This document shows positions 4,509-19,782 of a DNA stretch of 64,000 nt, in pieces. The notes under the pieces are model-generated. The model was not told where the DNA came from and did not search any database. It saw only the letters and a program-made list of their open reading frames with translations. This DNA comes from Acidobacteriota bacterium (GTDB lineage Bacteria > Acidobacteriota > Terriglobia > UBA7540). Each line of letters opens with the position of its first letter. Within the stretch, counting starts at the first letter, position 1. The stretch lies in the NCBI GenBank assembly GCA_004298155.1, contig SCRD01000012.1, positions 186,001 to 250,000 on the forward strand. Direction: 5' to 3'. The position numbers and the translations under genes were made by a program.

Positions 4509-4609
4509 CCTTTTTCAAGGCATGCTGTCCCGCCAGTTGGTGGCCCTTAATTGTACTGCGAAATCAAGACGACAGGTCTGCGCTGCCTGCAGGCGCCCGG
4601 GCGTAATTG

Positions 4610-6448
4610 ATGCCCCAAATCGAAATGGAGCGCACTACTCTCGACTCCGAGGGACCCTGCCACGCGACAGCAGCCTCCGCGCGGAGCGCCATTCCCTGGA
4701 TTTTGATCCTCATGGTGTGGATGGCAGTTTATTTCCAGGGCGCGTTCCGCCCTTCCTTGCTGGATGACGCCGACTCCACACATGCTGAGGCTGCAAGAGA
4801 GATGTACCAGGCGGGTGACTACGTCACGCTGCACGTGAACGGCATCCGTTATCTTGAAAAGGCTCCCTTGCCTTACTGGCTGGTGTCCTTTGGTTTTACA
4901 TTGGTCGGCGTTTCTGAGTTTGCCGTGCGTCTGCCTGTTATTCTTTCGATCCTGCTGCTGATTGGCCTCGGCACGCTCTGGGGGCTGCGGGCTTTTGGAG
5001 ATCGCGGAGGAATCTATTCCGGACTTTTTATAGCGACGTGTCTTGGTTGCTTTCTCTTCACTCGGGTATTTATCCCCGACGTCATTCTCAGCCTGCTGAT
5101 TGCACTTTCGCTCTATTTCTTTCTCTCAGCACTCGAGTCACGGCGACAGAATGAGTGGCAATGGTATGCCGCGTACGCCGCGATGGCGCTCGCTGTGCTC
5201 ACAAAGGGCTTAGTGGCAGCCGTCTTTATCGGCACCCCAGCCCTCAGCTATCTCCTGCTGACGGGCGAGGTGAAGCGATGGCGCGAACTGCGCCCGGGTA
5301 AAGGGATTGCCGTCTTCTTGATGGTCAGCGCACCGTGGCATATTCTGGCAAGTATTCGCAACCACGGATTCTTCTGGTTTTATTTCATCAATGAGCAGTT
5401 TCTGCGTTTTCTGGGAGAACGCTATCCGCGCGACTACAATAGATTGCCGGCCGCCCTCTACTGGGGACTGCACATCGTCTGGCTATTCCCCTGGAGCCTC
5501 TATTTTCCGCTCATCTTCCGCGACCTGAAGATGGACATCAAGGCGGCGCGAAACCCACCAAATCTTACCTTTGCGGCCAGGACGCGAGCTCTCTGCTGGG
5601 TCTGGGCAGGCGTGGTGCTGGTCTTCTTTTCGTTTTCGACCAACCAGGAATACTATACATTTCCTGCCTATCTTCCGCTGCTGTTGCTGGTCGCCGGAAC
5701 CCTGGCACGTGAGGAGGAACGGAAACGCCCAAGCCGATGGACCATTGTAGGCAGCGGACTTTACGCTGTAACGGGGCTGGCTATCGGTGCCGTACTTGTA
5801 GCGGCGCTGTGGACCTCAAAAAACCTTCCCGCCACCGCCGACCTCGGCCAATTGCTGGTCCATCGCGATATTGCAAACAACACGCTCTCAATGTCGAAGT
5901 TCTTTGACCTCACCACCGCGGCTTTTGCAGCGCTGCGCCTGCCAGCCGGACTGGCCGCCGCCGCACTGCTCATCGCCCCGCTCACAGGACTGATTCTGCG
6001 CCTCCGGAAAAAACATTTCGCTGCCACCTGGGCAACGGGAATTGCCACGGCGGTTTTCCTGTTGGCGGCCCAACTGGCTTTTGTCCGCTTCGGGCCGTTT
6101 CTCTCTTCCAAGCGGCTCGCAGATGCAATCCGAGGCAGGGAGAAGCCCGGCGACGTGGTGATGATTTATGGCGATCAGGCTTACGGGTCATCGCTGCTGT
6201 TCTATTTGAAAAGGCGGATTGATCTGGTTAACGGGCGAACGACATCAATGTGGTTCGGCTCAACCTTTCCCGACGCGCCGCACATCTTTTTGGATGATGC
6301 CAAACTTGTCCGCGACTGGAGCGGCGGGCACAGGATATTCCTGTTCGTTCCGCCAAGACAGCTCGACAAGGTAAACGAAATTCTGCCCCGGCCTCGATAT
6401 GTTGTCGCAGAGAGTTCCGGAAAAGTTGTCTACAGCAACGAACCGTGA
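4610..6448 (+). CDS. GT39/ArnT-like polytopic membrane glycosyltransferase
   Basis: This 612-residue integral membrane protein has many hydrophobic segments, from about residue 29 to residue 480, followed by a soluble C-terminal domain. The N-terminal periplasmic loop carries the acidic DDADSTHAE motif (Asp52-Asp53) and the sequence NGIRYLEKAPLPYW, both typical of the PMT_2/ArnT superfamily, where the aspartate is catalytic. These enzymes take a sugar from a polyprenyl-phosphate donor and transfer it to a lipid or protein on the periplasmic side. ATG at 4610 is preferred over the TTG just before it. The gene converges with the HpnI-like gene, with only 7 bases between them. ArnE/ArnF-like and ArnC-like functions lie close by on the other strand, suggesting a lipid-modifying role. 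Acceptor and donor are unknown. Confidence 0.82.
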   Translation: MPQIEMERTTLDSEGPCHATAASARSAIPWILILMVWMAVYFQGAFRPSLLDDADSTHAEAAREMYQAGDYVTLHVNGIRYLEKAPLPYWLVSFGFTLVGVSEFAVRLPVILSILLLIGLGTLWGLRAFGDRGGIYSGLFIATCLGCFLFTRVFIPDVILSLLIALSLYFFLSALESRRQNEWQWYAAYAAMALAVLTKGLVAAVFIGTPALSYLLLTGEVKRWRELRPGKGIAVFLMVSAPWHILASIRNHGFFWFYFINEQFLRFLGERYPRDYNRLPAALYWGLHIVWLFPWSLYFPLIFRDLKMDIKAARNPPNLTFAARTRALCWVWAGVVLVFFSFSTNQEYYTFPAYLPLLLLVAGTLAREEERKRPSRWTIVGSGLYAVTGLAIGAVLVAALWTSKNLPATADLGQLLVHRDIANNTLSMSKFFDLTTAAFAALRLPAGLAAAALLIAPLTGLILRLRKKHFAATWATGIATAVFLLAAQLAFVRFGPFLSSKRLADAIRGREKPGDVVMIYGDQAYGSSLLFYLKRRIDLVNGRTTSMWFGSTFPDAPHIFLDDAKLVRDWSGGHRIFLFVPPRQLDKVNEILPRPRYVVAESSGKVVYSNEP

Positions 6449-6455
6449 TGCGCTG

Positions 6456-7679
6456 CTATCCAGGGCGTATTCCGTCTTTGGGGCTCGCCGCCTCTGAACG
6501 ATCTTTGGGGACCATTCGTCCGCCGGAAACCAGCCGGTAACGCTCCCCGCGCCAGACAACCTCCGAACCCGAAAAGCTCGCGCACCACAGGATGAATCCC
6601 AGAAGGTCACGAAGAGGATACACCCAGCAATAAAGGGCCGAATCGCGGTCATGCGTGACGCCCCATCCAACCACCAGCGCCTGAATAACACGGTTGGCAA
6701 AAGCAGCAAAAAACAGGCCGAGCCCGAGCGCAGAGTTGCCAGACATCCAGCCCGCTGCCAACGCGAGCACACCAAACGGCATAGCAAACGTCAAGCCAGT
6801 TCCGATGTGACCCATGCGTCGCGAAAACCGCGAACTCTTCATCCAGCGCAGTTGATGGAGGAACGACGCCAGCCCGGACCGGTTTAATACGATGTGGTCA
6901 ATCACATGATGCGACAGCACCACTTTGCTGCCGGCTTCATACGTGAGCGCACCCATGACGAAATCGTCGGCACAGAAATCCCGCAGCACCCCGAACCCGC
7001 CCCATCGTGCCAGCACGTCTTTTCGGATGACCATTGTGGGTCCAAGCGCAAACTTCATTCCCTCCAAAAGGTTGGCTACTAACACGCCGGACGACATTTC
7101 TATCGACATGCCCAATGCCTCAAGGAGTGCCCAGAACCCACCTGTCGAAACGCCCCGATAAAGACAGGTGACCATGCCGACCGTCAGGTCCAGCATGGGC
7201 TTTACCACGTGCGCGAGGTAATCCGGCGCGACACGTACATCACTGTCGGTAATGAATAGGATGGGATAGGTGGCCAGTGGTAACATCCTCTCCATCAGAT
7301 GCACCTTGGCGTTTGGATAGCCTGGATTACCGGACAAGACGGTACGAGTTGCGATGTGCGGATATTTCATCCTGAGAGATTCGACAACGGCCAGTGCTGG
7401 GTCCGACCCGCTTCGCGCCCCGAAGATCAGTTCATAGACGGGATAATCCTGGCGAAAGAAACTCTCTAGACAGTCCTTCAGCAAGGGCTCCATGCCATGC
7501 AGCGGCTTGAGCACTGTCACGGGCGGTAGTGCGGTATTCCCCTTCGCCGTGTGGCACTCTTGATTCGCCGATGCACGAAAGCGCACCGCGGCGATGATAA
7601 CAAGCGCCAGGTAAACCGTTGACGCGACAAGTCCGGTGATAGCTACGATGAGTACGATAAGTTCAAGCATTGGGAGCAT
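6456..7679 (-). CDS. hpnI: HpnI-type glycosyltransferase (GT21, ceramide-glucosyltransferase-like)
   Basis: This 407-residue membrane-associated glycosyltransferase has an N-terminal membrane helix (about 5-33), a GT-A domain (about 52-290) and C-terminal membrane helices. It shows the GT21 signature aspartates: DSD at 145-147, ADDF around 237-240, and the HQLRW box at 275-279. HpnI is known to add N-acetylglucosamine to bacteriohopanetetrol during hopanoid head-group synthesis. The segment TCLYRG followed by Gly-Gly-Phe-Trp resembles HpnI more than the neighbouring paralogue does. It is last in the minus-strand run hpnJ-EamA-EamA-GT21-GT21. Two in-frame ATGs occur at the start; the first is used. 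It could instead act on another lipid acceptor such as diacylglycerol or ceramide. Confidence 0.75.
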   Translation of the reverse strand: MLPMLELIVLIVAITGLVASTVYLALVIIAAVRFRASANQECHTAKGNTALPPVTVLKPLHGMEPLLKDCLESFFRQDYPVYELIFGARSGSDPALAVVESLRMKYPHIATRTVLSGNPGYPNAKVHLMERMLPLATYPILFITDSDVRVAPDYLAHVVKPMLDLTVGMVTCLYRGVSTGGFWALLEALGMSIEMSSGVLVANLLEGMKFALGPTMVIRKDVLARWGGFGVLRDFCADDFVMGALTYEAGSKVVLSHHVIDHIVLNRSGLASFLHQLRWMKSSRFSRRMGHIGTGLTFAMPFGVLALAAGWMSGNSALGLGLFFAAFANRVIQALVVGWGVTHDRDSALYCWVYPLRDLLGFILWCASFSGSEVVWRGERYRLVSGGRMVPKDRSEAASPKDGIRPG

Positions 7680-7776
7680 AAGGAAAAAGCAAGGCTAATA
7701 TCATACGGCAGGCAGAATCATCAGAGCCAGTTGATCCAGACAGTTTGATAATTACGCGAGGCAGGAAAGCTGCCAA

Positions 7777-8943
7777 TCAGTCTTTGGCAGGTACGGGAAC
7801 CAGGCGTCCCTTGCGAACATAGAATTCGGTCCCACGCCAGTGAATGCGCCTTTTGACAAAGCTGACGGCAAGAATGCCAAACGCAAGAGCATCCCAAAGA
7901 GGGACGAGCCACAATCTTTTCCGAAGCAGAGGATCTTTGAGTCCCCAGACACCCACAGTCCAGGCCACGGCGAGCCGAAGCGCCAGGTATGCCCCTAGAA
8001 ATCCAGCCGTACCCTCCCAGGTGTTCTGTACCAGTGTTGCAGCCACCACCCACGGCAGGCCCTGGGTCAGAAGCCTGCCCAATTGTCCCCACGGGCGCGA
8101 ATGGGTCACGCCAACGGCCCAGCGGAGTTGATGTTTCATCGCGTCAAGAGCTCCCTGCGAGGGCGATAGGGTTTCCACTGTGTAAGGAATGAGTTCGACT
8201 TCGTGTCCCTGGTCGACAATTCGCCGGCCCAGCTCAAAGTCATCAGAAAAGCAATCCACGATGGCTTCAAACCCGCCGATTTCTTTCAACCTTTGGGCGG
8301 TGACGGCCATGGTGGCGCCCAGGGCAAACTTTACCCCTTCCAGTTGGCGGGCAACGATCACACCGGCCAGGAAGTCGGAAGTCAGGCCAACAGCCTCAAT
8401 TTCTGACCCTAATTTGGCTTCCGGCTGCATGTGGTACATGCAGGTGACGACGCCGACTCTCGGATCACGAAACGGACTCACGACAGCCCGCAGATAGTCG
8501 GGCTTGACGCGGATGTCACTATCGCTGATGACCAGCAGAGGGTATCTGGCCTCACGTGATAGACGGCAAAGCTTGCTGACTTTGCTGTTCCAGCCTTTGG
8601 ACGACGAACCAATCAAAAGTCGGATGCTTGTATTGGGACACTTTTCAATCAGTTTTTGGATAACCGGGATAACGGGATCGTCAGTGTCAGCAACACCAAA
8701 CAGAACTTCGTACTGCGGGTAATCGAGGTTGCAAAAGCTGGCAAAGTTTTCATAAGCCTCTCGATCGAGTCCCTTGACAGGCTTCAGGATGCTGACCGGG
8801 GGCGCGAAATCAGGATGGCGGGGAAAAGGGCGGCGGAAATAGCGCCAGGCGCTGAACAGCACTGCCAAATAATAAAGCAGTGAAATGATGGCGCCAACGG
8901 AAACAAACCACTCGATCAGATGCAAGTGCGAATGCATGGCCAT
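7777..8943 (-). CDS. HpnI-like GT21 glycosyltransferase, second copy
   Basis: This 388-residue paralogue of the next gene downstream has the same architecture: an N-terminal membrane helix (about 10-33), a GT-A domain and C-terminal helices. Motifs are SDSD at 140-143, SDDF at 233-236 and HQLRW at 271-275, so all GT21 catalytic elements are kept. The start at 8943 has AAGGA just upstream on the minus strand; a second ATG lies two codons later. It begins 13 bases after the small EamA gene, which indicates cotranscription. Two GT21 enzymes in one locus suggest two successive sugar transfers or two different acceptors. The acceptor is inferred to be a hopanoid from context only. Confidence 0.78.
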   Translation of the reverse strand: MAMHSHLHLIEWFVSVGAIISLLYYLAVLFSAWRYFRRPFPRHPDFAPPVSILKPVKGLDREAYENFASFCNLDYPQYEVLFGVADTDDPVIPVIQKLIEKCPNTSIRLLIGSSSKGWNSKVSKLCRLSREARYPLLVISDSDIRVKPDYLRAVVSPFRDPRVGVVTCMYHMQPEAKLGSEIEAVGLTSDFLAGVIVARQLEGVKFALGATMAVTAQRLKEIGGFEAIVDCFSDDFELGRRIVDQGHEVELIPYTVETLSPSQGALDAMKHQLRWAVGVTHSRPWGQLGRLLTQGLPWVVAATLVQNTWEGTAGFLGAYLALRLAVAWTVGVWGLKDPLLRKRLWLVPLWDALAFGILAVSFVKRRIHWRGTEFYVRKGRLVPVPAKD

Positions 8944-8956
8944 CGTCCTTTAATTC

Positions 8957-9328
8957 TTACACGCAGACCAGCGCTACTCCGGCACAGACAATAATAACGC
9001 CGATCCATCTTTCCCGGTTCACATGCTCGCCCAGCAGGAATTGCGCACCCAGGGCTCCCACGGCATAACTGGCAGCAGTGGCTGGAACCACCAGACTCAC
9101 GTTAGCCCAGGAAAGGAGCGCCAACAATGAAAAAAACGCCACGGCCATCAGGCCAATCCCGATCCACAGCCATTTTATGCGGATGGAGTTGCCAAGGAAG
9201 CTCAAGATATTCAGCAGAGTAAACCGCTTGATTTCTCCAACGGTTTTCATGGCCATCGACAAAGAAATATCGCCCAACTGCCCTGCAATGACAATAATCC
9301 CGATAAACAGAGCCGTTCGAGCCGTCAT
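8957..9328 (-). CDS. small EamA/ArnF-like four-helix membrane protein
   Basis: This 123-residue protein has four predicted membrane helices and belongs to the drug/metabolite transporter (EamA, SMR-like half-size) group. The C-terminal part, with SLVVPATAASYAVGALGA and a LLGEHV motif, matches the typical 'P...Y..gal.....l.GE......rwiGv.li..Gv' pattern. Half-size members such as ArnE and ArnF pair up to flip undecaprenyl-phosphate-aminoarabinose. Its ATG overlaps the stop of the upstream homologue by 4 bases (ATGA at 9325-9328), so the two are translationally coupled and probably form a heterodimer. The cargo is inferred to be a glycosylated lipid of the hopanoid pathway. Confidence 0.75.
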   Translation of the reverse strand: MTARTALFIGIIVIAGQLGDISLSMAMKTVGEIKRFTLLNILSFLGNSIRIKWLWIGIGLMAVAFFSLLALLSWANVSLVVPATAASYAVGALGAQFLLGEHVNRERWIGVIIVCAGVALVCV

Positions 9329-9741
9329 GGATTTTGGCTCGTGCTGGGATGCGTTCCGCCAACCACAAAAACCCCCACACAGATCAGGCCAACCCCAACC
9401 CAGCGCGTTGTAGGGACGTGCTCTCCCAGAATAAAGTATCCCATCAGCGCCACCAGGACATAACCGATTGCCGATGCAGGTGAAACGTAACTGAAATCCG
9501 CCCAGGAAAGCACCAGCATATAGCTCACCAGGAAGGCTATCAGAAGTGCAATCCCCATCCAGATAGTTCCACTCACAAACGCTCTTGCAAAGTACGCGAT
9601 TGCACTTCCCAAGGCCCAGCTATGGAGTTCACCAAGCCTCTTCATGCCCTGGCTGAGCAGAACGTCGCCGGATGACCCAAATATGACCATAAACGCCAGC
9701 AAGATAAAGGTCTTGCCACGCTGGCTTTTTGATTCAGACAT
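9325..9741 (-). CDS. small EamA/ArnE-like four-helix membrane protein
   Basis: This 138-residue protein is the first of the coupled pair. It has four hydrophobic segments and the EamA-type C-terminal signature: SYVSPASAIGYVLVALMG, then FILGEHVP and a Gly-rich last helix. ATG at 9741 (MSESK...) is chosen. The frame stays open further upstream, but that extension runs antisense-free into the 3' part of hpnJ and contains no membrane-protein-like sequence. The gene lies 49 bases downstream of hpnJ. By analogy with ArnE/ArnF it is likely one half of a lipid-linked-sugar flippase; the substrate is not shown by sequence. Confidence 0.75.
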   Translation of the reverse strand: MSESKSQRGKTFILLAFMVIFGSSGDVLLSQGMKRLGELHSWALGSAIAYFARAFVSGTIWMGIALLIAFLVSYMLVLSWADFSYVSPASAIGYVLVALMGYFILGEHVPTTRWVGVGLICVGVFVVGGTHPSTSQNP

Positions 9742-9790
9742 GAACTTCCACAGTCCAAAATAACTCAATGATTCGACGGCGGCCCGAGGC

Positions 9791-11272
9791 CTAGTCGATA
9801 GCCGGCACGCTGATTGAGGCGGTTTTTTGCGGACCTTTACGGGCGAACTTGAGGCGTTCGCTTCGCAAGCGCAAAAATTCCACGGCTTCATGATATAAAC
9901 GCTTGCGTTCGTCGTTGTTCCACAGCGCCTTGCGCATGATGCGCCACACAACTCGAGGCCGGAAGTAATACTCATCGTAAAAGCGGTTGACTGCATCCAT
10001 CATTTGAGCAGTCGAAAGCCCGGGATACTCGATGTGAGGCAACTGGTGACCGTTTGTGTCAGACATGGGAAGGTTCACCAGCTGTCCTGCCTGCAACAAC
10101 TGGTTGTACATTTCCGTACCCGGATATCCGTGCGCGATGGAAACCTGGATGGTTTCCGTGTCCAGTTCCTTGGCAAAATCGATGGTGCGCTGGATGGTTT
10201 CCGGGGTTTCGCCCGGCAACCCGATGATGAAATCGCCGTGAATGGCAATGCCAACCTTCTTGCAGTTCTTGGCAAACCTTCGGCCCATCTCAGCCGTTGC
10301 GCCCTTCTTGATGTTCTTCAGGACCTGATCGTCGCCTGATTCAAAACCCACGATAAACAGACGCGCCCCGCCGTCAGCCATGGCTTTCAGCGTTTCATAA
10401 TCGCTGTGAACTCGGGCCGTGCAGGACCAGCGAAAGCCCAGAGGTTTGAACTTCTTTGAGAGCTCTATCGCGCGGTCTTTGCGGATGTTGAAGGTATCAT
10501 CGTCAAAGAAGAATTCCTTTGCCTGCGGGAAAAGATTGAGAGCCTGCCGGACTTCCGCGACGACGTTGTCCACGGAGCGCGTCCGCCAGGCATGGCCGGA
10601 AAGCGTCTGCGGCCAGAGGCAGAACGTGCAGAGCGCAGGACATCCGCGGGAAGAATAGAACGAAACAAAAGGGTGAAGCAGGAACGGAACGTTGTAATTC
10701 TCGATAGTCAGGTTTTGCTTGTATACTTCCGTTGCGAACGGCAGACGATCAAGGTCTTCTGTCTGCAATTCTTTGCGCGGCGGATTGTGGACGATCTTTC
10801 CATCCTCACGGTAGCTGGCGCCGAGAATTTCACTGAGCGGCTTACCCTGCGCGAACTCCACTACGGCGTAATCGAATTCACCCCGCACGATAAAGTCGAT
10901 GTCCTCACTGGCCATCAAACTCTCTTCGGGCTTCACCTGTACCGGCGGCCCCACGAAAGCTACTTTCAGGCTCGGCTTGACCTCTTTCATTCGGCGAACC
11001 AATTTCAAGTCATTTTCAAAGCCGACGGCGGAAGTAAACAGAACCAAAAACTCGTAGTCTTTGGAAATTTCGACCGTCTGCTGGGGAGTGACCTTGTGTG
11101 GGGGGGCATCCAGCAAGCGGCTGCCGGGCAACATGCCCGCTGGATAAGTCAGCCAGACAGGATACCAGTATGACTCAATCTCGCGCGTGGCTGGCCATCT
11201 CGAGCTTGCACCACCGTCGAACTTCTCGAAACTTGGAGGGTTCAGCAAGAGCGTCTTCAAAACAGACTCCAT
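9791..11272 (-). CDS. hpnJ: hopanoid radical SAM protein HpnJ
   Basis: This 493-residue protein has an N-terminal B12-binding-like domain (about 1-170) and a radical SAM core. The SAM/[4Fe-4S] motif CxxxCxxC is at Cys211, Cys215 and Cys218, followed by LWPQT and later FFFDDDTF, all hallmark HpnJ segments. The N-terminus, with NPPSFEKFDGGASSRW and WYPVWL, is also HpnJ-like. HpnJ is needed to turn the glucosamine head group of bacteriohopanetetrol into the cyclitol ether by radical ring contraction. ATG at 11272 is preferred to a GTG two codons earlier because AAGGGAG lies five bases upstream of it. It heads a minus-strand run with two flippase-like and two HpnI-like genes. HpnK, the deacetylase normally acting between HpnI and HpnJ, is not in the window. 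Confidence 0.9.
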   Translation of the reverse strand: MESVLKTLLLNPPSFEKFDGGASSRWPATREIESYWYPVWLTYPAGMLPGSRLLDAPPHKVTPQQTVEISKDYEFLVLFTSAVGFENDLKLVRRMKEVKPSLKVAFVGPPVQVKPEESLMASEDIDFIVRGEFDYAVVEFAQGKPLSEILGASYREDGKIVHNPPRKELQTEDLDRLPFATEVYKQNLTIENYNVPFLLHPFVSFYSSRGCPALCTFCLWPQTLSGHAWRTRSVDNVVAEVRQALNLFPQAKEFFFDDDTFNIRKDRAIELSKKFKPLGFRWSCTARVHSDYETLKAMADGGARLFIVGFESGDDQVLKNIKKGATAEMGRRFAKNCKKVGIAIHGDFIIGLPGETPETIQRTIDFAKELDTETIQVSIAHGYPGTEMYNQLLQAGQLVNLPMSDTNGHQLPHIEYPGLSTAQMMDAVNRFYDEYYFRPRVVWRIMRKALWNNDERKRLYHEAVEFLRLRSERLKFARKGPQKTASISVPAID

Positions 11273-11485: not shown

Positions 11486-12487
11486 CTAATTTGCGTCCAG
11501 GCGCCGGAGGGCATCCCGGGCCGATTGATTGTCGGGGCTCAGGCTGAGCGCAGAGCGGTATTCGTCAACCGCGCGTCGCTTCTCTCCCCGAATTTCGTGA
11601 ATCCGTCCCAGCCAGTTACGCGCTTCTGCATGAGACGGAAAATCGTCACGCGGGGGTGTTTTCGCGAGATACTCCTTCAAGTTTTGTTCAGCTTTAGAGA
11701 GGTCCTCATGTCTCATGACACTGGCGACTGCACTGTAATAATTCAGTCGGGGGTCCCTCGGAGCGATGGGAGAAACAGCTCGAACCACAGCTTCAACCTC
11801 CGCAGGCTTCCCATCAGCCTCATAGAAGTCCGCAACCTGAAAATAGGCCTCCGCCCGCTGCGGCTTCGCTTCCAGAACCTTTTGGAACTCTTTTGAGGCC
11901 AGCGCCGGCTCGTTCAGGTCGCGCCAATAAATTGCGCGGGCGAGATCGCCCTCCGTGGGGTTCCGCAAGGCAATGGCTTCGACCTGGTCCCATGCCTTTT
12001 CCTTACTTCCTCCCAGTATCCAGGGAGCCTGGAGGTAAAACTCCATCAGATCCCGGCGCGCGTCCAGGTTGTCCGGATCAAGCCGCGCTGCCACCTGATA
12101 CTCCATCCTTGCCTTCCTTGCCAGCAAAAAGCTGCGGGCTGTGTCGGCCTTCATTGCATAAGAGCGCGCCAGCCAGTAGTGTGATTCCGAACAATCGGGT
12201 GACAACCGCACGGCGTGCTCGGCATAAGTTACGGCCTGGTCGTATTCGGCGAGCTCCAGGAAGGAACGTGCCAGCCACAACGTGGCCTGTGCATCATTGG
12301 GATTCTTATCAACCTCCCTCTTGAGCACGGATACAGTTTCACCCAACATTGCCGCGTCGAACTCGCTTGCTATGCCGGGTGGCGCCGGACATGGGCTGGG
12401 GGCCGCGTTGCCTGAAGCCCACGCGCGCACGCCCAGAGCTAGGACAGAAAAGAGTGCTAAAAAAATATGTGTTTTCAGCAATTTCAT
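11486..12487 (-). CDS. secreted TPR-repeat protein
   Basis: This 333-residue protein has an N-terminal signal peptide (about 1-24, ending AWASG), so it is expected in the periplasm. Several tetratricopeptide repeats follow, for example at about 60-130 (YDQAVTYAEHAVRLSP) and near the C-terminus (KRRAVDEYRSALSLSPDN). No enzymatic domain was seen. TPR proteins serve as scaffolds in protein complexes. It lies about 210 bases upstream of hpnJ on the same strand and is divergent from ispH, so it may share the regulatory region with the hopanoid operon. A specific role is unknown. Confidence 0.8.
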   Translation of the reverse strand: MKLLKTHIFLALFSVLALGVRAWASGNAAPSPCPAPPGIASEFDAAMLGETVSVLKREVDKNPNDAQATLWLARSFLELAEYDQAVTYAEHAVRLSPDCSESHYWLARSYAMKADTARSFLLARKARMEYQVAARLDPDNLDARRDLMEFYLQAPWILGGSKEKAWDQVEAIALRNPTEGDLARAIYWRDLNEPALASKEFQKVLEAKPQRAEAYFQVADFYEADGKPAEVEAVVRAVSPIAPRDPRLNYYSAVASVMRHEDLSKAEQNLKEYLAKTPPRDDFPSHAEARNWLGRIHEIRGEKRRAVDEYRSALSLSPDNQSARDALRRLDAN

Positions 12488-12796
12488 ACATTAAGAAAAT
12501 GATCGACTAGCGTCTTGAGGCGGGCCTCCATTGTGGGCGCAATCCATAAAGTTCAATATTTTAGCAAAAACCCCTGCAAAAGGTATAGAGAGTTATTGTT
12601 CGCCACGGCACAACCCTCTTGGAATTAAGATGCATCGTTTCATAAGATGGCTTCATCAATATGGCGGAGAAACTATGGGACCACTTATGATGGTCAGACT
12701 GGGATGCCTAAGTCTCCGCTTATCTTGACGGTGAAAAGAGACCATGAGAGGATTATCCTTACAGGGGATGTAACTGGAAAGGATGATGACAAAACA
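12488..12796. other. divergent promoter region upstream of hopanoid operon
   Basis: About 309 bases separate the TPR gene (minus) from the chosen ispH start (plus). The ispH frame remains open back to 12647, but that extra stretch of 50 codons matches nothing I recognise in IspH and is treated as leader. The AT-rich stretch at 12551-12596 could hold promoter elements, but I cannot assign -35 and -10 boxes with confidence. Confidence 0.4.
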
Positions 12797-13765
12797 ATGA
12801 ACGTGGTTCCTCACGTTGAGAACTCTGTTTATACCGAACCGGGCACCTTGCTGTTGCTACGGCCCAGGGGCTTCTGCGCGGGTGTCATCCGTGCTATTGA
12901 CGTCGTGCGCATGGTTCTTGAAAAACTGGGGCCACCGGTGTATGTGCGGAAGGAAATTGTGCACAACCGCTACGTCGTAGACGAACTGGCCAGCCAGGGC
13001 GCGGTGTTCGTTGAAAATCTTGAAGAGGTGCCCACCGGAGCAGCCGTTATTTTCAGCGCTCACGGAGTTTCCCCCGCTGTCCGCGAGGAAGCACGCTCCC
13101 GGCAACTTCGTATTATCGACGCTACCTGCCCCCTGGTCACTAAGGTACATCTGGAAGTGATCCGGTATGCCCGAGAAAACTACACGATTGTCCTGATTGG
13201 CCATCGCGACCATGACGAAATGATTGGCACGCTGGGTGAGGCACCTGAAGCCATCCATCTAATCTCCTCCGTGGAGGATGTAGAAAATCTCAGTCCGCCC
13301 AATCCTAACCGGATCGTCTACTTGACGCAGACCACCTTGAGCCTCGACGACACGGCAGAAATTGTCGACCGACTCAAAGAGCGATTTCCTGCTATTATCG
13401 GGCCGCCCGGGCAGGACATCTGTTATGCCACTCAAAACCGGCAGATGGCGGTCAAAGCCGTTGCCCCCAGGGCTGATGGCATCCTAGTAGTAGGGGCCCA
13501 GAACAGTTCAAATTCAAACCGGCTGGTGGAAGTCGCCCGGCGAGGAGGAACTGCGGCTTACCTTATCGGCAATGCTGATGATATCCTCCCGGAGTGGGTA
13601 AGAGGCCATCGCCGGATCGGTGTCACCGCGGGCGCGTCAACGCCTGAAGTTCTGGTGCGGCAGGTCGTGGATCGCCTGAAGGAATGGGGCTTTACACGAG
13701 TCGAAGAAGTTGAGTGGATTGAAGAGGACGTCCGCTTTGCGCTACCTGCGGAATTGAAGGTGTGA
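12797..13765 (+). CDS. ispH: 4-hydroxy-3-methylbut-2-enyl diphosphate reductase (IspH/LytB)
   Basis: This is the last enzyme of the methylerythritol phosphate pathway, which reduces HMBPP to IPP and DMAPP using a [4Fe-4S] cluster. With the ATG at 12797 the protein is 322 residues, the normal family length; earlier in-frame starts would add up to 50 unrelated residues. The three cluster cysteines are visible in GFCAGV, DATCPLV and DICYATQNRQ. The substrate-binding AHGVSP, QTTLS and NSSNSNRL segments are also present. It lies 31 bases before the squalene-hopene cyclase gene, so precursor supply is probably co-expressed with hopanoid synthesis. Function is certain; only the start codon is in doubt. 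Confidence 0.93.
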   Translation: MNVVPHVENSVYTEPGTLLLLRPRGFCAGVIRAIDVVRMVLEKLGPPVYVRKEIVHNRYVVDELASQGAVFVENLEEVPTGAAVIFSAHGVSPAVREEARSRQLRIIDATCPLVTKVHLEVIRYARENYTIVLIGHRDHDEMIGTLGEAPEAIHLISSVEDVENLSPPNPNRIVYLTQTTLSLDDTAEIVDRLKERFPAIIGPPGQDICYATQNRQMAVKAVAPRADGILVVGAQNSSNSNRLVEVARRGGTAAYLIGNADDILPEWVRGHRRIGVTAGASTPEVLVRQVVDRLKEWGFTRVEEVEWIEEDVRFALPAELKV

Positions 13766-13796
13766 AGAGTTGCACGGAGAAAATGCCGGGGGGTTC

Positions 13797-15833
13797 ATGA
13801 CAAGGGAAGCAGGAATTGAGCTCGAACCGTTTAAAAACGGCGGTGCAGATGGCACCGTCGTTGCTGATCTTGATCTTCGGGTTCAACAAGCCATTGAACG
13901 GGCGGCCGAGCATTTGCTTTCTTTGCAGACTCCAGAAGGATACTGGGTCGGTGAGTTGCAGGCTGATTCTACTCTTGAGTCCGATTATGTGTTTTTCCTC
14001 CATGTTGTCGGCCAGTTTGACCCCGAGCGCATAGCAAAGCTTGCCAATTATATCCGGCACAGGCAGCTCCCGGACGGCGGATGGAACATCTATCAGGGTG
14101 GTCCTTCAGAGCTGAACGCCACCGTCAAGGCGTATGTGGCGCTTAAGCTTGCCGGCGACTCGGCTGATGATCCGCATATGGCAGCCGCTCGCTCTAAAAT
14201 TCACAAACTCGGCGGCCTGGAGCAGACCAATTCTTATACGCGCTTTTATCTGGCACTTGGCGGCGCCGTTAAATGGAAGCACGTACCGGCTATCCCCCCC
14301 GAGTTGATGCTCCCGCCAAAATGGTTTTTCTTTAATCTCTACTCTCTCTCTTCGTGGACCCGCGCCATTGTGGTTCCGCTCACCATCCTTTATGCCAAGC
14401 GACCAAAGTGGCCCGTGCCGGCTTACGCCCGGGTTGACGAGCTGTTCCGTGACCCCTCAGGTCACATCCCGGCTTTCGACTGGGATCGGAGAGTCCTTAC
14501 ATGGCGGAACCTCTTTCTGGCCATCGACCGGCTGTTCAAATTGCACGAATCCCTGCCGTGGAAACCCCTCCGTAAAATTGCTCTTGCGCAGGCGCAGAAA
14601 TGGCTGCTGGATCACCTGGAGAGGAGCGAAGGATTGGGGGCCATCTACCCCGCTATGGTCAACTCAATCTTTGCATTGCTGGCCATGGGATATTCCGCAG
14701 ATGATCCACTGACGGCGAGGGAGCTGGCGCATTTGCGCGGGTTCGAAGTAGAAAAGGGTGACACGATTTCACTGCAACCTTGCATGTCACCCGTCTGGGA
14801 CACGGCAATCGCAATGTACTCGCTCGAGGAAGCGGGACTGCATCCGGACCATCCGGCCCTGGTCAAAGCTGCACGATGGCTGCTCGACCGCCAGATTGTC
14901 GGCCCGGGCGACTGGCAGGTGAAGAACCAGGACGCCGCCCCGGGAGGCTGGGCGTTTGAATTTCGAAATGATTTTTACCCGGATGTTGACGATGCCTCTT
15001 TTGTGATGATGGCACTGCAGAGAGTTGCCTACCCGGACAAGGTCCGGCTCGAACATGCGCTCCGAAGGAGTTTTCGCTGGCTGGTCAGCATGCAGAACCG
15101 CGACGGCGGTTGGGGTGCTTTCGACCGTAACAACGACTGCTCAGTTCTGACTCGCGTCCCCTTTGCCGATCACAACGCCATGATCGATCCTTCAACGGCA
15201 GATGTGACGGCGCGGGTGCTGGAATGCATTGCGCGCCTTGGATGGCCGGCGTCTCACCCCGCAGTGCAGAGCGGGCTGAGTTACCTGCGGAAGGAGCAGA
15301 CTGCTGAAGGGGCCTGGTACGGACGGTGGGGAGTGAATTACGTGTATGGAACCAGCGGCGTGCTGCGAATGCTGGAAGCATTTGGACTCGGCAGGATACA
15401 GGAGGCCCAAAGGGGGGCCGACTGGCTCTGTGCCGTCCAGAACCGGGACGGCGGCTTTGGAGAATCATGCGCCTCCTACGATGACCCTTCTCTTAAAGGA
15501 AGAGGGGCAAGCACTCCTTCACAAACAGCATGGGGATTGATCGGGTTACTGGCAACTCGGAACGTGGACGACCCGGCCGTTATTAGATCCGTGCAATACC
15601 TGCTGGAGGAACAAACCGAAGAGGGATTCTGGAAAGAGGACGAGTTTACCGGGACGGGCTTCCCGCGGGTCTTCTATCTTTGTTACACTTTATATCGCGA
15701 CACCTTCCCGCTTTATGCGCTGGCACACTACCAAAGCCTTCGCAGCAAGAGGGGGCAGACGGAGTCCATTCGCTTTTCGCCCGCGGAATTTGAGCGACAT
15801 GATGGGAACGGAAAGAAGAACGGGAGGAATTGA
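13797..15833 (+). CDS. shc: squalene-hopene cyclase
   Basis: This 678-residue class II triterpene cyclase folds squalene into hopene/hopanol at the cytoplasmic membrane face. The catalytic DxDD acid motif is DVDD at residues 396-399. Several QW-type repeats are visible, for example LQTPEGYWVGEL near residue 43, QLPDGGW near 90, and NRDGGWGAF and NRDGGFGES further on. ATG at 13797 is chosen because a G-rich SD-like stretch (GGGGGG) lies just before it; a TTG 27 bases upstream is possible. The stop overlaps the hpnH start by one base (TGATG). Length and motifs agree with the family, and the downstream hopanoid genes confirm the role. Confidence 0.95.
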   Translation: MTREAGIELEPFKNGGADGTVVADLDLRVQQAIERAAEHLLSLQTPEGYWVGELQADSTLESDYVFFLHVVGQFDPERIAKLANYIRHRQLPDGGWNIYQGGPSELNATVKAYVALKLAGDSADDPHMAAARSKIHKLGGLEQTNSYTRFYLALGGAVKWKHVPAIPPELMLPPKWFFFNLYSLSSWTRAIVVPLTILYAKRPKWPVPAYARVDELFRDPSGHIPAFDWDRRVLTWRNLFLAIDRLFKLHESLPWKPLRKIALAQAQKWLLDHLERSEGLGAIYPAMVNSIFALLAMGYSADDPLTARELAHLRGFEVEKGDTISLQPCMSPVWDTAIAMYSLEEAGLHPDHPALVKAARWLLDRQIVGPGDWQVKNQDAAPGGWAFEFRNDFYPDVDDASFVMMALQRVAYPDKVRLEHALRRSFRWLVSMQNRDGGWGAFDRNNDCSVLTRVPFADHNAMIDPSTADVTARVLECIARLGWPASHPAVQSGLSYLRKEQTAEGAWYGRWGVNYVYGTSGVLRMLEAFGLGRIQEAQRGADWLCAVQNRDGGFGESCASYDDPSLKGRGASTPSQTAWGLIGLLATRNVDDPAVIRSVQYLLEEQTEEGFWKEDEFTGTGFPRVFYLCYTLYRDTFPLYALAHYQSLRSKRGQTESIRFSPAEFERHDGNGKKNGRN

Positions 15834-16891
15834 TGCGGTTTCCGCTCAGTTTGACGGCAAATCTTAGCACATACATAGCCGGAAAAAGGCTTCATCGGGT
15901 TGATAAATTTCCTCTGGTCATGATGTTGGAACCGTTGCATGCCTGTAACCTCACGTGCACCGGCTGCGGGCGTATTCGCGAATACAAAGATACCATCCGT
16001 GACAAGCTGACGGTTGAGCAGTGCTTGAATGCAGTGGATGAGTGTGGTGCGCCTATCGTTTCCATTTGCGGCGGCGAGCCAATGATCTATCCGGACTTGC
16101 CGCGCCTGGTGAGCGAAATCCTGGACCGCAGGAAAAACATCTACCTGTGCACGAACGGAATGTTCATCCGCAAACGCCTGAAGGATTACAAGCCCACGTC
16201 GCGGATGTTCTTCAACGTCCACCTGGACGGCATGGAGGCCACTCACGACCTCTGCGTCGAGCGCGAAGGTGTATTCCGTGAGGCCGTCGAGGCCATCAAG
16301 TTCGCCAAAGACCGCGGCTTTCAGGTGTGCACCAACACAACTATTTACAAGCAGACCGACCTCAACGAAATCGCGGAAATGTTTGAGTTCCTGCGGGGCC
16401 TCGGTGTTGACGGGCACATGCTTTCACCAGCCTATTCCTATATTGCGGTTCAGACCAAGGAAATCTTCATGTCACGGCAGGAAATTCATGAGAAGTTTCG
16501 GTTGGCCAGCCAATTGCTCGAAAGGTACAGCGTCATGACCTCGCCGATCTACCTGGAGTATCTGCGCGGCGAGCGTGAGTTGGAGTGTACGGCCTGGGGC
16601 AATCCTACATATAACCCGCGCGGCTGGAAGGGGCCGTGTTACCTGATCACCGACGCCCATTACGCCACCTTCAAAGAATTTATGGAATCTACTCCCTGGG
16701 AAAACTATGGACCAGGGAAAGATCCTCGATGCGAACACTGTATGGTCCATGTGGGGTTTGAACCTTCCGCGGTGCTGGGAGCCAACCGAACATTTCCCGA
16801 TACATGGAAACTGCTGAAATGGCAGCTCACAAAACCGAAGAACGGGCACAACGGCAACGGCGCCCATTACGGGAATGGAAGCGCAGGATGA
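15833..16891 (+). CDS. hpnH: adenosyl-hopene synthase HpnH (radical SAM)
   Basis: This 352-residue radical SAM enzyme attaches a 5'-deoxyadenosyl group to hopene (diploptene), the first step of C35 side-chain building. The cluster motif CxxxCxxC is at Cys38, Cys42 and Cys45 (ACNLTCTGCGR). The SAM-binding GGEP motif follows (CGGEPMIYP), and a SPASM-like C-terminal region contains further cysteines. ATG at 15833 is preferred to a TTG just before it because GGGAGG precedes it. It is translationally coupled to shc (1-base overlap) and to hpnA (4-base overlap). Family assignment is strong. Confidence 0.94.
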   Translation: MRFPLSLTANLSTYIAGKRLHRVDKFPLVMMLEPLHACNLTCTGCGRIREYKDTIRDKLTVEQCLNAVDECGAPIVSICGGEPMIYPDLPRLVSEILDRRKNIYLCTNGMFIRKRLKDYKPTSRMFFNVHLDGMEATHDLCVEREGVFREAVEAIKFAKDRGFQVCTNTTIYKQTDLNEIAEMFEFLRGLGVDGHMLSPAYSYIAVQTKEIFMSRQEIHEKFRLASQLLERYSVMTSPIYLEYLRGERELECTAWGNPTYNPRGWKGPCYLITDAHYATFKEFMESTPWENYGPGKDPRCEHCMVHVGFEPSAVLGANRTFPDTWKLLKWQLTKPKNGHNGNGAHYGNGSAG

Positions 16892-17910
16892 CCTCTCTTG
16901 TAACGGGTGCAAGCGGTTTTGTGGGAAGCCACGTAGCACGAATGCTGGTCGACCGTGGCGAAAAGATCCGTGTTCTGGTCCGCCCGCAGAGTAACCTTGT
17001 TGCCCTCGAAGGTGTGCCGGTAGAAAAGGTCGACGGCGACTTGCGAGACCCTGAATCCCTGGCGTGCGCGGTCGAGGGCGTCGATCGGGTCTTCCATGTT
17101 GCAGCCGACTACCGTCTGGGCGCGCGCCACCCTCAGGAGATATACGACTCCAATGTAGCCGGCACTCGAAATCTGCTCGAAGCGGCAGCCAGGGCGGGAG
17201 TTCAGCGCATCATCGTTACCAGCAGTGTTGCGACCATTGCAGTAGACCGCGGCAACACCCTGCCGAATGAAGCAACGGAGGCAGGCATCGAGGAAATGAT
17301 CGGACATTACAAGCGCTCAAAGTTTCTCGCTGAAAAAGAGGCGTTTAGAGCTGCACGCCAAGGAATTCCTGTCGTTGTCGTTAACCCCACGACTCCGGTG
17401 GGCCCAGGCGACTGGAAGCCCACGCCCACCGGCCGCATTATCGTGGACTTTCTTAACGGAAGGATGCCGGCATATGTGGAAGCGGGGCTCAATTGGGTGC
17501 CTGTCGAGGATGTTGCGTTGGGCCACTGGATCGCCGCCGAACGCGGCCTTGTTGGAAAGCGGTATATTCTTGGCGGCCGCAATATGCTGCTAAAAGAGGT
17601 TCTCGACACGCTGGCGCGAATTAGCGGGCGGCCCAGCCCTCGAATTTGTCTGCCTCATGCCGTGGCCATGGCGGCAGGCTATGCCGATCAGGTCTTTTCA
17701 CGCATACTCAACCGCCAGCCACGAATCCCGCTGGAGGGGGTTCGGATGGCCCGGCACAATATGTTTGTGGATTGTTCAAGAGCCGCCGATGAACTTGGTT
17801 TCAAGGCTGGCCCGGTAGAGGCTGCATTCGAGCGAGCTGTCGCCTGGTACGAGCGTAAGGGCTACTTCCATAACAATAACGCACCACCAAAATTTGTGCG
17901 GGCAGCATAG
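16888..17910 (+). CDS. hpnA: hopanoid-associated sugar epimerase HpnA
   Basis: This 340-residue extended short-chain dehydrogenase/reductase has the nucleotide-binding motif TGASGFVG at residues 6-13 and the catalytic Tyr141-x-x-x-Lys145 with Ser112/Ser113. This is the HpnA group of NAD-dependent epimerase/dehydratase-like proteins found in hopanoid loci. Its precise reaction is not settled; a role in modifying the side-chain sugar or head group has been proposed from context. The ATG at 16888 overlaps the hpnH stop (ATGA). A longer frame begins inside hpnH but would add unrelated sequence. Confidence 0.88.
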   Translation: MTSLVTGASGFVGSHVARMLVDRGEKIRVLVRPQSNLVALEGVPVEKVDGDLRDPESLACAVEGVDRVFHVAADYRLGARHPQEIYDSNVAGTRNLLEAAARAGVQRIIVTSSVATIAVDRGNTLPNEATEAGIEEMIGHYKRSKFLAEKEAFRAARQGIPVVVVNPTTPVGPGDWKPTPTGRIIVDFLNGRMPAYVEAGLNWVPVEDVALGHWIAAERGLVGKRYILGGRNMLLKEVLDTLARISGRPSPRICLPHAVAMAAGYADQVFSRILNRQPRIPLEGVRMARHNMFVDCSRAADELGFKAGPVEAAFERAVAWYERKGYFHNNNAPPKFVRAA

Positions 17911-17926
17911 TAAGGCAGTAACGCAA

Positions 17927-18682
17927 ATGAAAATGTTAGTGACATTTGCGGTGGAATGGGAATTCAAGCCATGGCTTCGGCTTGGGAGCTTTCAGCCGGT
18001 TCCGGGCAACAGCCATGCCTTTCGCAGAGAGACAGCAGGCAGCGATGTCGAGATCATCCTCACCGGGGTCGGTGCGGGCAATGCGGCTCGTGCAATCCGA
18101 AACTTCATCGATGAGGCTCCCGACATCTGCATTGCCTCGGGGCTGGCAGGGGGACTAAAGCCGCAGCACAGGCCGGGAGAAATCCTGGCGGCAAGATCTG
18201 TCCGCGCCGAAAGCACCGGACCTTCTTATGAGAGTGCCGAGGCTCTTCTGGTTGCTGCCGTTAAGTGTGGAGCGAAACCGGTAGACGAGTTTATTTCGGT
18301 TGCCCATGTGGCTCGCACAGCCAAGGAGAAAAATCTTCTCGGCGCTGTCGCAGATGGAGTAGACATGGAATCCTTTGCGGTTATGAAAGAAATGCGCGTG
18401 CTCGGCGTGCCCTGTGCTGCAGTGCGAAGCGTTGCTGACCCGGCCGAAATGGATGTACCGTGCGACTTTGACCAGGCCCTTGACGATTCGGGGCACATTC
18501 GGATTGGACGCATTTTAGGCCAAGTCGCAAGTGACCCACGACGCGCGTGGCCGCTGGCCCAGTTAGGCGTGCAGAGCGCGCGGGCCGCCACGGCCCTGGC
18601 CCGGTATCTCGAAGCTTTTGCCACTTACCTGGCCGGACATAAGGAGGAAATGGACCTGAGCGTCCAGCATATCAGCCGATGA
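17927..18682 (+). CDS. hpnG: adenosylhopane nucleosidase/phosphorylase HpnG
   Basis: This 251-residue nucleoside-phosphorylase-fold protein removes adenine from adenosylhopane to give ribosylhopane (or its phosphate). It shows the family TGVGAGNAARA segment (46-56), a SGLAGGL loop, VDMES at 145-149 (substrate ribose binding) and RSVAD near 167-171. ATG at 17927 is used; AAGG lies about 12 bases upstream. The gap after hpnA is 16 bases, and the stop overlaps the next gene by 4 bases (ATGA at 18679-18682). The assignment rests on fold motifs plus operon context and is strong. Confidence 0.88.
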   Translation: MKMLVTFAVEWEFKPWLRLGSFQPVPGNSHAFRRETAGSDVEIILTGVGAGNAARAIRNFIDEAPDICIASGLAGGLKPQHRPGEILAARSVRAESTGPSYESAEALLVAAVKCGAKPVDEFISVAHVARTAKEKNLLGAVADGVDMESFAVMKEMRVLGVPCAAVRSVADPAEMDVPCDFDQALDDSGHIRIGRILGQVASDPRRAWPLAQLGVQSARAATALARYLEAFATYLAGHKEEMDLSVQHISR

Positions 18683-19782
18683 CAACTGCCAGAGCAGAAA
18701 CCGGAACGCCCTCGGAACTTCAGCAGCAGCAGAAGCGCATGTGGGCTGGAGTCTACCGCGGGCAAGGCCGTGTGATAGCTGAAGAAGTTCCGGTACCGGC
18801 AATTGAATCCGGCGAAGTGCTGTTGCGAGTCTGCGCGTGCGGAATCTGCGGGACTGACATTAAGAAGATCAAGCAAGGATTTCTCCCTCCGCCGCAGATA
18901 TTCGGTCACGAGATTGCCGGAACGGTCGAGGCCGTTGGCGATGACGTCCGCAAATGGCGGCCGGGCGATCGGGTACTGACCTTCCACCACATTCCTTGCG
19001 GCGATTGTTTCTATTGCAGGCAGAAACTATATTCGCAATGCCCTACATACAAGAAGGTCGGAGTCACCAGCGGCTTCCGTCCCAGCGGCGGCGGCTTTGC
19101 GGAGTACGTCCGCGTGATGGATTGGATCGCCGAACGCGGGATGATCCATATTCCCCCCGATGTCAGCTTCGAGGAAGCTTCCTTCGTCGAACCAGTCAAT
19201 ACATGCTTGAAGGCAATCTATAAAGCCAGAATCGAGGCACACGATACAGTTCTGGTGATTGGCCAGGGTCCTATCGGCATGCTGTTGATGATGCTGGCGC
19301 GCATCTACGGCGGCAGGGTGATGACAACCGATCCGATGCAGGCGCGCCGGCGGAAGAGCGTCGAACTCGGGGCTGATGAATCCTTTGATCCTGCAGGCGT
19401 GGATCTTCTGGAGGCCATCCGCGAGCGGACTTCGGGGCGCGGTGCAGATGTCGTGCTGGTTGCGGCACCACAGCGGGAACTCCTGGAGCAGGCCCTGACG
19501 CTTAGCCGCCCCGGCGGACGTGTTTTGCTGTTTGCGTATAATGACCCGCTGCTTCGCGTGGAATTCCCTGCCGCAACAGTCGGTATAGAAGAAAAAGAAA
19601 TCCTCGGAAGTTATAGTGCCTCATTTGATCTGCAAGACGAGTCTGCGCGGCTAATTTTTGAACGTGTCCTCCCGGTCCGGGAATTGATATCCCACCGGTT
19701 TCCACTTTCTGAAATTGGACAGGCCTTGGAACTTGCAGCATATCCAACCGAGGAGTCTCTGAAAATCATAGTGGTGCCTTAA
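18679..19782 (+). CDS. zinc-dependent alcohol dehydrogenase (MDR family), hopanoid operon
   Basis: This 367-residue medium-chain dehydrogenase/reductase is of the sorbitol/threonine-dehydrogenase type. Catalytic zinc ligands are Cys57 (CGICGTD), His77-Glu78 (GHE) and Glu171. The structural zinc lobe has Cys107, Cys110, Cys113 and Cys121. The Rossmann motif GQGPIG is at 195-200, with an Asp after strand two (TTDP), which suggests NAD(H). All key residues are intact, so it should be active in polyol/ketose or aldehyde redox chemistry. It overlaps hpnG by 4 bases and the next dehydrogenase by one base, so it is firmly part of the hopanoid operon. A role in reducing or oxidising the ribosyl side chain is inferred; it is not a named Hpn protein I recognise. 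Confidence 0.85.
   Translation: MTTARAETGTPSELQQQQKRMWAGVYRGQGRVIAEEVPVPAIESGEVLLRVCACGICGTDIKKIKQGFLPPPQIFGHEIAGTVEAVGDDVRKWRPGDRVLTFHHIPCGDCFYCRQKLYSQCPTYKKVGVTSGFRPSGGGFAEYVRVMDWIAERGMIHIPPDVSFEEASFVEPVNTCLKAIYKARIEAHDTVLVIGQGPIGMLLMMLARIYGGRVMTTDPMQARRRKSVELGADESFDPAGVDLLEAIRERTSGRGADVVLVAAPQRELLEQALTLSRPGGRVLLFAYNDPLLRVEFPAATVGIEEKEILGSYSASFDLQDESARLIFERVLPVRELISHRFPLSEIGQALELAAYPTEESLKIIVVP

Follow-up and report, generated by a model that had tools for sequence, protein, structure and literature searches.

A putative paired EamA flippase and an ArnT-like glycosyltransferase gene beside the hopanoid head-group gene hpnJ in an acidobacterial genome

We analysed a hopanoid locus in a stretch of 64,000 nucleotides (nt) of contig SCRD01000012.1, called the window below, from an Acidobacteriota genome of 5.2 Mb that is 98% complete. 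Hopanoids are bacterial relatives of sterols, and the genes under study are hpnJ, which modifies the head group of bacteriohopanetetrol (BHT), two small EamA genes, two copies of hpnI and an ArnT-like gene. Labels in G denote sample genomes (G000 being the window genome), labels in L loci and labels in C contigs. The genes of the module are:

9791 to 11272, minus strand: hpnJ, B12-binding radical S-adenosylmethionine (SAM) enzyme, BHT-glucosamine to BHT cyclitol ether (TIGR03471, 715 bits, cut-off 577.6; PF02310 and PF04055)
9325 to 9741, minus strand: EamA1, first subunit of a small EamA pair of the small multidrug resistance (SMR) fold, 138 amino acids (aa) (PF00892, 1.3e-7; weak ArnE match)
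8957 to 9328, minus strand: EamA2, second subunit, 123 aa (PF00892, 5.4e-5, below gathering cut-off)
7777 to 8943, minus strand: HpnI1, BHT N-acetylglucosaminyltransferase family, clade of the hpnJ operon (TIGR03472, 333.8 bits, cut-off 310)
6456 to 7679, minus strand: HpnI2, HpnI paralogue of the ArnT-paired clade (TIGR03472, 310.4 bits, only just over the cut-off of 310)
4607 to 6448, plus strand: ArnT/PMT-like glycosyltransferase of the GT-C type (PF13231, PMT_2, 1.3e-19, 71.4 bits, gathering cut-off 26.1)

The minus-strand genes follow each other in the order hpnJ, EamA1, EamA2, HpnI1, HpnI2, with spacings of 49 nt, a 4-nt ATGA overlap (EamA1/EamA2), 13 nt and 97 nt, respectively, and this arrangement is compatible with a single transcript. 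The longest open reading frame of EamA1 (9325 to 9996, 223 aa) is too long and extends 206 nt into hpnJ; homology and the presence of an ATG at 9741 place the true start at about that position. The ArnT-like gene is convergent with HpnI2, the gene ends being 7 nt apart. The original prediction, made from the bare sequence, had placed HpnJ, two coupled half-size EamA genes and a nearby ArnT/GT39-like gene within a hopanoid locus, and profile matches found all of them. It had also named two GT21 enzymes and suggested that a glycosylated hopanoid or a polyprenyl sugar is flipped and used outside the membrane. Both GT21 genes are present, but they are HpnI paralogues at the equivalog cut-off, so that most of the head-group chemistry belongs to the described pathway.

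In that pathway, BHT is converted to BHT-N-acetylglucosamine (BHT-GlcNAc) by HpnI, to BHT-glucosamine by HpnK and to the cyclitol ether by HpnJ (PMC12583986). The HpnJ of the window, which was aligned with 14 acidobacterial orthologues, lies above the equivalog threshold (at least 577.6 bits) and has both the B12-binding and the radical SAM domains, and the two HpnI copies, with 333.8 and 310.4 bits, lie above theirs (at least 310 bits). The closest HpnJ relatives include metagenome-assembled genomes (MAGs) of Acidobacteria subdivisions 2 and 13 and of Ca. Acidiferrales. The HpnI tree separated the two copies: HpnI1 belongs to a starred clade in which 17 of the 19 rows adjoin hpnJ, and HpnI2 to another starred clade of seven, six of which adjoin an ArnT-like gene. 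Comparison with the HpnI-HpnK-HpnJ pathway of Burkholderia and Alphaproteobacteria (PMC12583986) showed that shc, hpnH, hpnA and an hpnG-like gene also lie alongside, whereas the window genome differs in having an EamA pair and an ArnT-like gene at the place near hpnJ that HpnL takes in others, in lacking HpnN, in carrying two HpnI, and in encoding on another contig an HpnK-like protein that scores below the cut-off. In acidobacterial hopanoid clusters, hpnJ is known to lie near the hpnA/hpnG and hpnC/D/E clusters, as it does here, and strain KBS83 has "two additional genes" between those clusters and hpnJ; the EamA, ArnT-like and exporter genes were neither identified nor interpreted in that work (PMC5462960).

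The neighbourhood check that the original prediction had proposed for hpnJ and the EamA pairs was run on 120 hpnJ loci (40 from the phylum sample and 80 from named genomes), the counts being drawn from related genomes in a sample dominated by one family. In 99 of the 120 loci, the number of EamA genes after hpnJ is exactly two; several of the exceptions are contig ends. The order hpnJ-(hpnK)-EamA-EamA-(hpnI) recurs in several acidobacterial families and in one MAG named Deltaproteobacteria. In the EamA tree, the proteins of position 1 and position 2 fall on opposite sides of one branch (Shimodaira-Hasegawa-like approximate likelihood ratio 99), so that the duplication is older than the divergence of these lineages, and the gene order has been kept since.

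Paired SMR heterodimers of fixed topology are expected to show opposite Arg/Lys biases (PMC9574504). With helix limits set by us, and on related loci that are not independent, the bias was greater at position 1 than at position 2 in 100 of 100 EamA pairs and of opposite sign in 86, with means of +2.1 and -5.6; the window pair has +1 (EamA1) and -4 (EamA2). As judged from the sequences, this pattern is the signature of antiparallel, fixed-topology SMR heterodimers. The first transmembrane helix (TM1) carries near-invariant motifs, G-(D/N) in EamA1 and G-(D/E) in EamA2. Both proteins have the length (about 100 to 140 residues), the four predicted transmembrane helices and the fold of small SMR/EamA transporters, and the AlphaFold2 (AF2) model of EamA1 (pLDDT 87) matched EmrE and Gdx-Clo best in the PDB (Foldseek probability 0.99-1.00, E > 0.05). 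The nearest curated subfamily is the ArnE flippase. Like ArnE/ArnF, the SMR-type lipid flippase of undecaprenyl-phosphate-4-amino-4-deoxy-L-arabinose (Und-P-Ara4N; PMC9574504), the pair consists of two coupled proteins of about 110-140 aa with four transmembrane helices in a lipid amino-sugar operon, and a deacylase gene adjoins it in some lineages. It differs from ArnE/ArnF in its score (27.7 bits for EamA1 and no match for EamA2, where NF011625 asks for at least 92) and in its linkage to hopanoid rather than lipid A genes.

A six-frame search of 47 whole genomes with a joint EamA alignment showed that 33 of the 34 strong matches (at least 100 bits) are no more than 2 kb away from an hpnI, hpnJ or hpnK gene; of the weaker matches, this is true of a contig-end fragment only. 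Among the genomes searched, those with squalene-hopene cyclase (Shc) and no hpnI lacked such an EamA, the sole exception being a weak 75-bit match in G246. The EamA pair of G267 stands beside hpnK, hpnJ being elsewhere in the genome, and a single EamA follows hpnI or hpnI-hpnK in five genomes in which no hpnJ was found (G037, G066, G196, G235 and G274). A pair specific to HpnJ was consequently rejected: EamA also stands next to hpnI-hpnK where hpnJ is lacking, and is thus part of the whole pathway for the amino-sugar head group.

Near hpnJ, EamA and HpnL exclude each other: no hpnL lies within 6 kb in any of the 102 loci that have EamA, the seven loci that have hpnL lack EamA, and none has both. 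The seven are L042 and L043 (Acidobacteriota), an Omnitrophota MAG, Methylobacterium and three Burkholderiaceae. HpnL, a gene of no established function (PMC12583986), is thus found in this position near hpnI/J/K where a lineage lacks the EamA pair, although the protein families (LPG_synthase_TM in the case of HpnL) are unrelated. HpnN, the proteobacterial resistance-nodulation-division transporter that carries out the same overall task of moving hopanoids outward, from the inner to the outer membrane, was not found over its cut-off (TIGR03480) in 297 genomes, nor was there a match at 1e-20 in G000 or in the listed HpnJ-positive genomes of the same class (Acidobacteriaceae-type). Taken together, the exclusion of EamA and HpnL and the absence of HpnN suggest that the EamA pair and HpnL may be two unrelated, alternative solutions to one step, the departure of the finished lipid from the cytosolic leaflet.

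The ArnT-like gene (E <= 1e-40) was present in 59 of 297 genomes, 57 of which have hpnI and 54 shc. Among the 76 Shc-positive genomes, it was found in 54 of the 57 with HpnI and in none of the 19 without, a difference whose Fisher p value of 4e-15 is inflated because the genomes share ancestry, one family being dominant. Counted by hand, 11 of the 13 families with Shc- and HpnI-positive genomes have the gene, against 0 of 8 families judged by their Shc-positive, HpnI-negative genomes. Where both genes are present, hpnI lies within 5 kb of the ArnT-like gene in 33 of 57 genomes, mostly in convergent orientation and often less than 250 nt away, as in the window; L043, L083 and L091 have a similar convergent arrangement beside hpnJ. 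The doubt cast by the original prediction on the membership of the GT39 gene, on account of its strand, gives way before this co-conservation with hpnI and hopanoid synthesis. As far as gene neighbourhoods go, the original prediction thus withstood the refuting condition that it had set itself.

The protein belongs to the GT-C/PMT_2 superfamily (PF13231 above gathering), and its only PDB match was ArnT (5ezm/5f15, 1.7e-37). The RYA and YFEKP motifs mark the first periplasmic loop of ArnT (PMC5377068); the window protein keeps the essential Lys of the latter (YLEKA) but has THA for RYA. It reached 103 bits where the ArnT model NF009784 asks for at least 567, its Arnt_C domain (PF18583) remained below gathering (21.3 versus 26.5 bits), and unlike ArnT it is associated with hpnI and shc. 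By its motifs, PDB match and hpnI linkage, the protein is thus a GT-C enzyme that accompanies hpnI and is distinct from ArnT proper. The window genome encodes a second ArnT-like protein, whose gene shares a run with hpnL-like and hpnK-like genes (G000:C29:159-4360, L200); the HpnK-like protein of this run scores under the HpnK cut-off and has a further match to a chitin disaccharide deacetylase model. The run lies at the contig end, after an asparagine-synthase-like gene.

Three relatives without hpnJ, L196, L197 and L193 (in G196, G235 and G066, respectively), have hpnI-(hpnK)-EamA followed by a DegT/PseC-like aminotransferase gene, which an NAD epimerase gene joins in L193 and L197. These two enzymes could make a nucleoside diphosphate (NDP)-amino sugar for the same head-group module. 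Their presence in relatives strengthens the parallel with the arn system that the original prediction had drawn; both genes are absent from the window. That parallel holds for the ArnE/F-like architecture of the EamA pair and its co-conservation with hpnI/J/K, but not for orthology to ArnE, ArnF and ArnT, which was rejected on the curated cut-offs.

In the reading we favour, at marginally better than even chances, the EamA pair would be an SMR-fold flippase dedicated to the BHT-glucosamine/cyclitol-ether head group, and the pathway would also include the ArnT-like enzyme, acting as a glycosyltransferase in the periplasm; for the hopanoid as the substrate of the flippase, taken separately, the chances appear about evenly balanced. 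HpnI1 would add GlcNAc to BHT on the cytosolic face, the amine would be freed by a deacetylase of HpnK type whose gene lies at another place in the genome, and HpnJ would rearrange the amino sugar to the cyclitol ether, a chemistry known in other bacteria. EamA1 and EamA2 would then form an obligate antiparallel SMR-fold heterodimer flipping the finished BHT-glucosamine or cyclitol-ether lipid to the periplasmic leaflet, a role likened to that of ArnE/ArnF for Und-P-Ara4N and possibly held by HpnL in other lineages. In the periplasm, the ArnT-like enzyme, paired with the HpnI2 subfamily, may transfer a further sugar. GT-C enzymes generally use a lipid-phosphate donor, and a hopanoid glycoside is therefore an unlikely donor and more probably the acceptor; the donor would most likely be a polyprenyl-phosphate sugar and the acceptor the hopanoid head group. 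This reading builds on gene content and co-conservation as observed, on the orthology of the pairs, their charge bias and the predicted fold, on the mutual exclusion with HpnL near hpnJ and on the absence of HpnN from the window genome; what we infer is which substrate the EamA pair moves and in which direction, what the ArnT-like enzyme uses as donor and acceptor, and what role HpnI2 has.

Several points weigh against it, beginning with the shared ancestry behind the Fisher value. The best HpnK-type protein of the window genome scored 208 bits, below the HpnK cut-off of 232.6, and hpnK has been reported missing from Acidobacteria subdivisions 1 and 3 (PMC5462960), so that synthesis of the cyclitol ether is not certain in this genome. 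G029 has hpnI/J/K and neither EamA nor the ArnT-like gene, and G278 has the ArnT-like gene without EamA; neither gene is thus needed for head-group synthesis as such. The AF2 model of the ArnT-like protein, built on a 4-row alignment, reached a pLDDT of only 41 and was not usable.

The joint absence from G029 would also suit a different substrate for the EamA pair, a polyprenyl-phosphate sugar whose carrier is loaded by HpnI2 or another glycosyltransferase and deacetylated by an HpnK-like protein, the ArnT-like enzyme then placing the sugar on the hopanoid head group. In favour of it, the donor used by ArnT is Und-P-Ara4N, which ArnE/F flip (PMC9574504, PMC5377068), HpnI2 belongs to the ArnT-paired clade, the hpnI-hpnK-EamA-DegT aminotransferase run of G196 is convergent to an ArnT-like gene, and G235 and G066 have both the aminotransferase and the NAD epimerase. 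However, the EamA pair tracks hpnJ/hpnK and lies far from the ArnT-like gene in most genomes; G007 has EamA without an ArnT-like gene at 1e-40, and G278 shows the converse. HpnI, moreover, is of the GT21 type and is expected to act on a lipid hydroxyl and not on a phosphate. We consider this alternative possible but rather doubtful. It is improbable that the ArnT-like, HpnI2, HpnK-like and HpnL-like proteins form a lipid A aminosugar system (NaxD-type) tied to hopanoid makers by descent only, the hpnJ-EamA-EamA-HpnI1 operon being separate. Such a system would agree with ArnT being the only solved relative, with the single run of ArnT2, hpnL and hpnK on C29 and with the chitin disaccharide deacetylase match of its HpnK-like protein. 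Yet the ArnT-like gene is nearly confined to Shc-positive genomes (54 of 59), tracks HpnI within these in 11 of 13 families, and squalene-hopene cyclase would not be needed for modification of lipid A.

That the EamA pair instead works as an SMR-type exporter, with a small cation or a pathway by-product as its cargo, seems very improbable: the fold matches EmrE and Gdx, and the near-invariant acidic/Asn residue of TM1 could couple to protons, but the nearest curated subfamily is a lipid flippase, the linkage to lipid head-group genes is constant, and the pair excludes HpnL, itself a membrane protein of another family. Least credible of all is a chance neighbourhood of the ArnT-like gene, which is on the opposite strand, and hence has its own transcript, and has several paralogues in many acidobacterial genomes; this was largely refuted by the adjacency to hpnI, by the HpnI2 clade and by the co-occurrence counts given above.

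We found no paper in the openly accessible literature in which an EamA pair, an ArnT-like enzyme or a flippase is named for hopanoid synthesis. The hpnI/J/K genes and the extra genes near hpnJ (PMC5462960) are already known; the putative novelty lies in a paired SMR-type lipid flippase and a GT-C enzyme attached to a different lipid. The result is a short gene list for the flipping step of hopanoids in a phylum abundant in soils and peat. To our knowledge, hopanoid flipping across the inner membrane has not been demonstrated for any protein. Two predictions follow: HpnL and the EamA pair should each be able to replace the other, and a relative of ArnT should glycosylate hopanoids on the outward face. 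Hopanoid head groups serve as biomarkers, and which lineages make or export them bears on the reading of those records.

The genes surrounding the module in the window are:

11486 to 12487, minus strand: tetratricopeptide repeat (TPR) protein just upstream of hpnJ (TPR Pfam models)
12647 to 13765, plus strand: ispH/lytB, opening the divergent isoprenoid/hopanoid operon (NCBIfam ispH models over cut-off)
13770 to 15833, plus strand: shc, squalene-hopene cyclase (TIGR01507, 777.6 bits, cut-off 431)
15830 to 16891, plus strand: hpnH, adenosylhopane synthase (TIGR03470, 432.8 bits, cut-off 225)
16804 to 17910, plus strand: hpnA, true start probably at about 16888 (TIGR03466, 439.8 bits, cut-off 368; model match from residue 29)
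17894 to 18682, plus strand: hpnG-like phosphorylase (TIGR03468, 5e-29, below cut-off)

Comparison of the DNA upstream of hpnJ showed that genes for an HlyD/MacA-type adaptor, a TPR protein, in some cases a MacB-like permease, and a TolC-like protein lie directly upstream on the same strand in 46 of the 98 loci with enough upstream DNA; in 49 loci a TPR homologue precedes hpnJ on its own strand. Examples of the set are L078 (offset -4981 to -111 of hpnJ), L074, L087 and L139. This set is a candidate envelope exporter in place of HpnN. An intact set in the window genome was unsupported: only the TPR gene adjoins hpnJ, and identity is 24% for the best of the TolC-like matches elsewhere in the genome. 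A complete Arn-like hopanoid line, in which HpnI/K/J would work inside, EamA1/EamA2 would flip the lipid and the ArnT-like enzyme would add a second sugar outside, giving an undescribed glycosylated hopanoid often exported by the adaptor-TPR-(MacB)-TolC set and not by HpnN, with HpnL as the equivalent of the EamA pair elsewhere, must be regarded as speculative and on balance unlikely.

Two medium-chain Zn dehydrogenase genes (18679-20840) lie in the shc-hpnH-hpnA-hpnG run, and their homologues adjoin hpnG/hpnA in many acidobacterial loci. Two pyrroloquinoline quinone (PQQ)-dependent dehydrogenases with cytochrome c domains are encoded at 33703-35895 and 38923-41199 of the window. The B12-binding radical SAM protein with DUF4070 at 57537-59204 is only a distant relative of HpnJ, as are five consecutive B12-binding radical SAM homologues at G000:C3:26782-35539. 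The contig of L082, filed as a Gammaproteobacteria MAG, encodes an HpnJ that is 76% identical to that of the window and is probably a misassigned acidobacterial contig.

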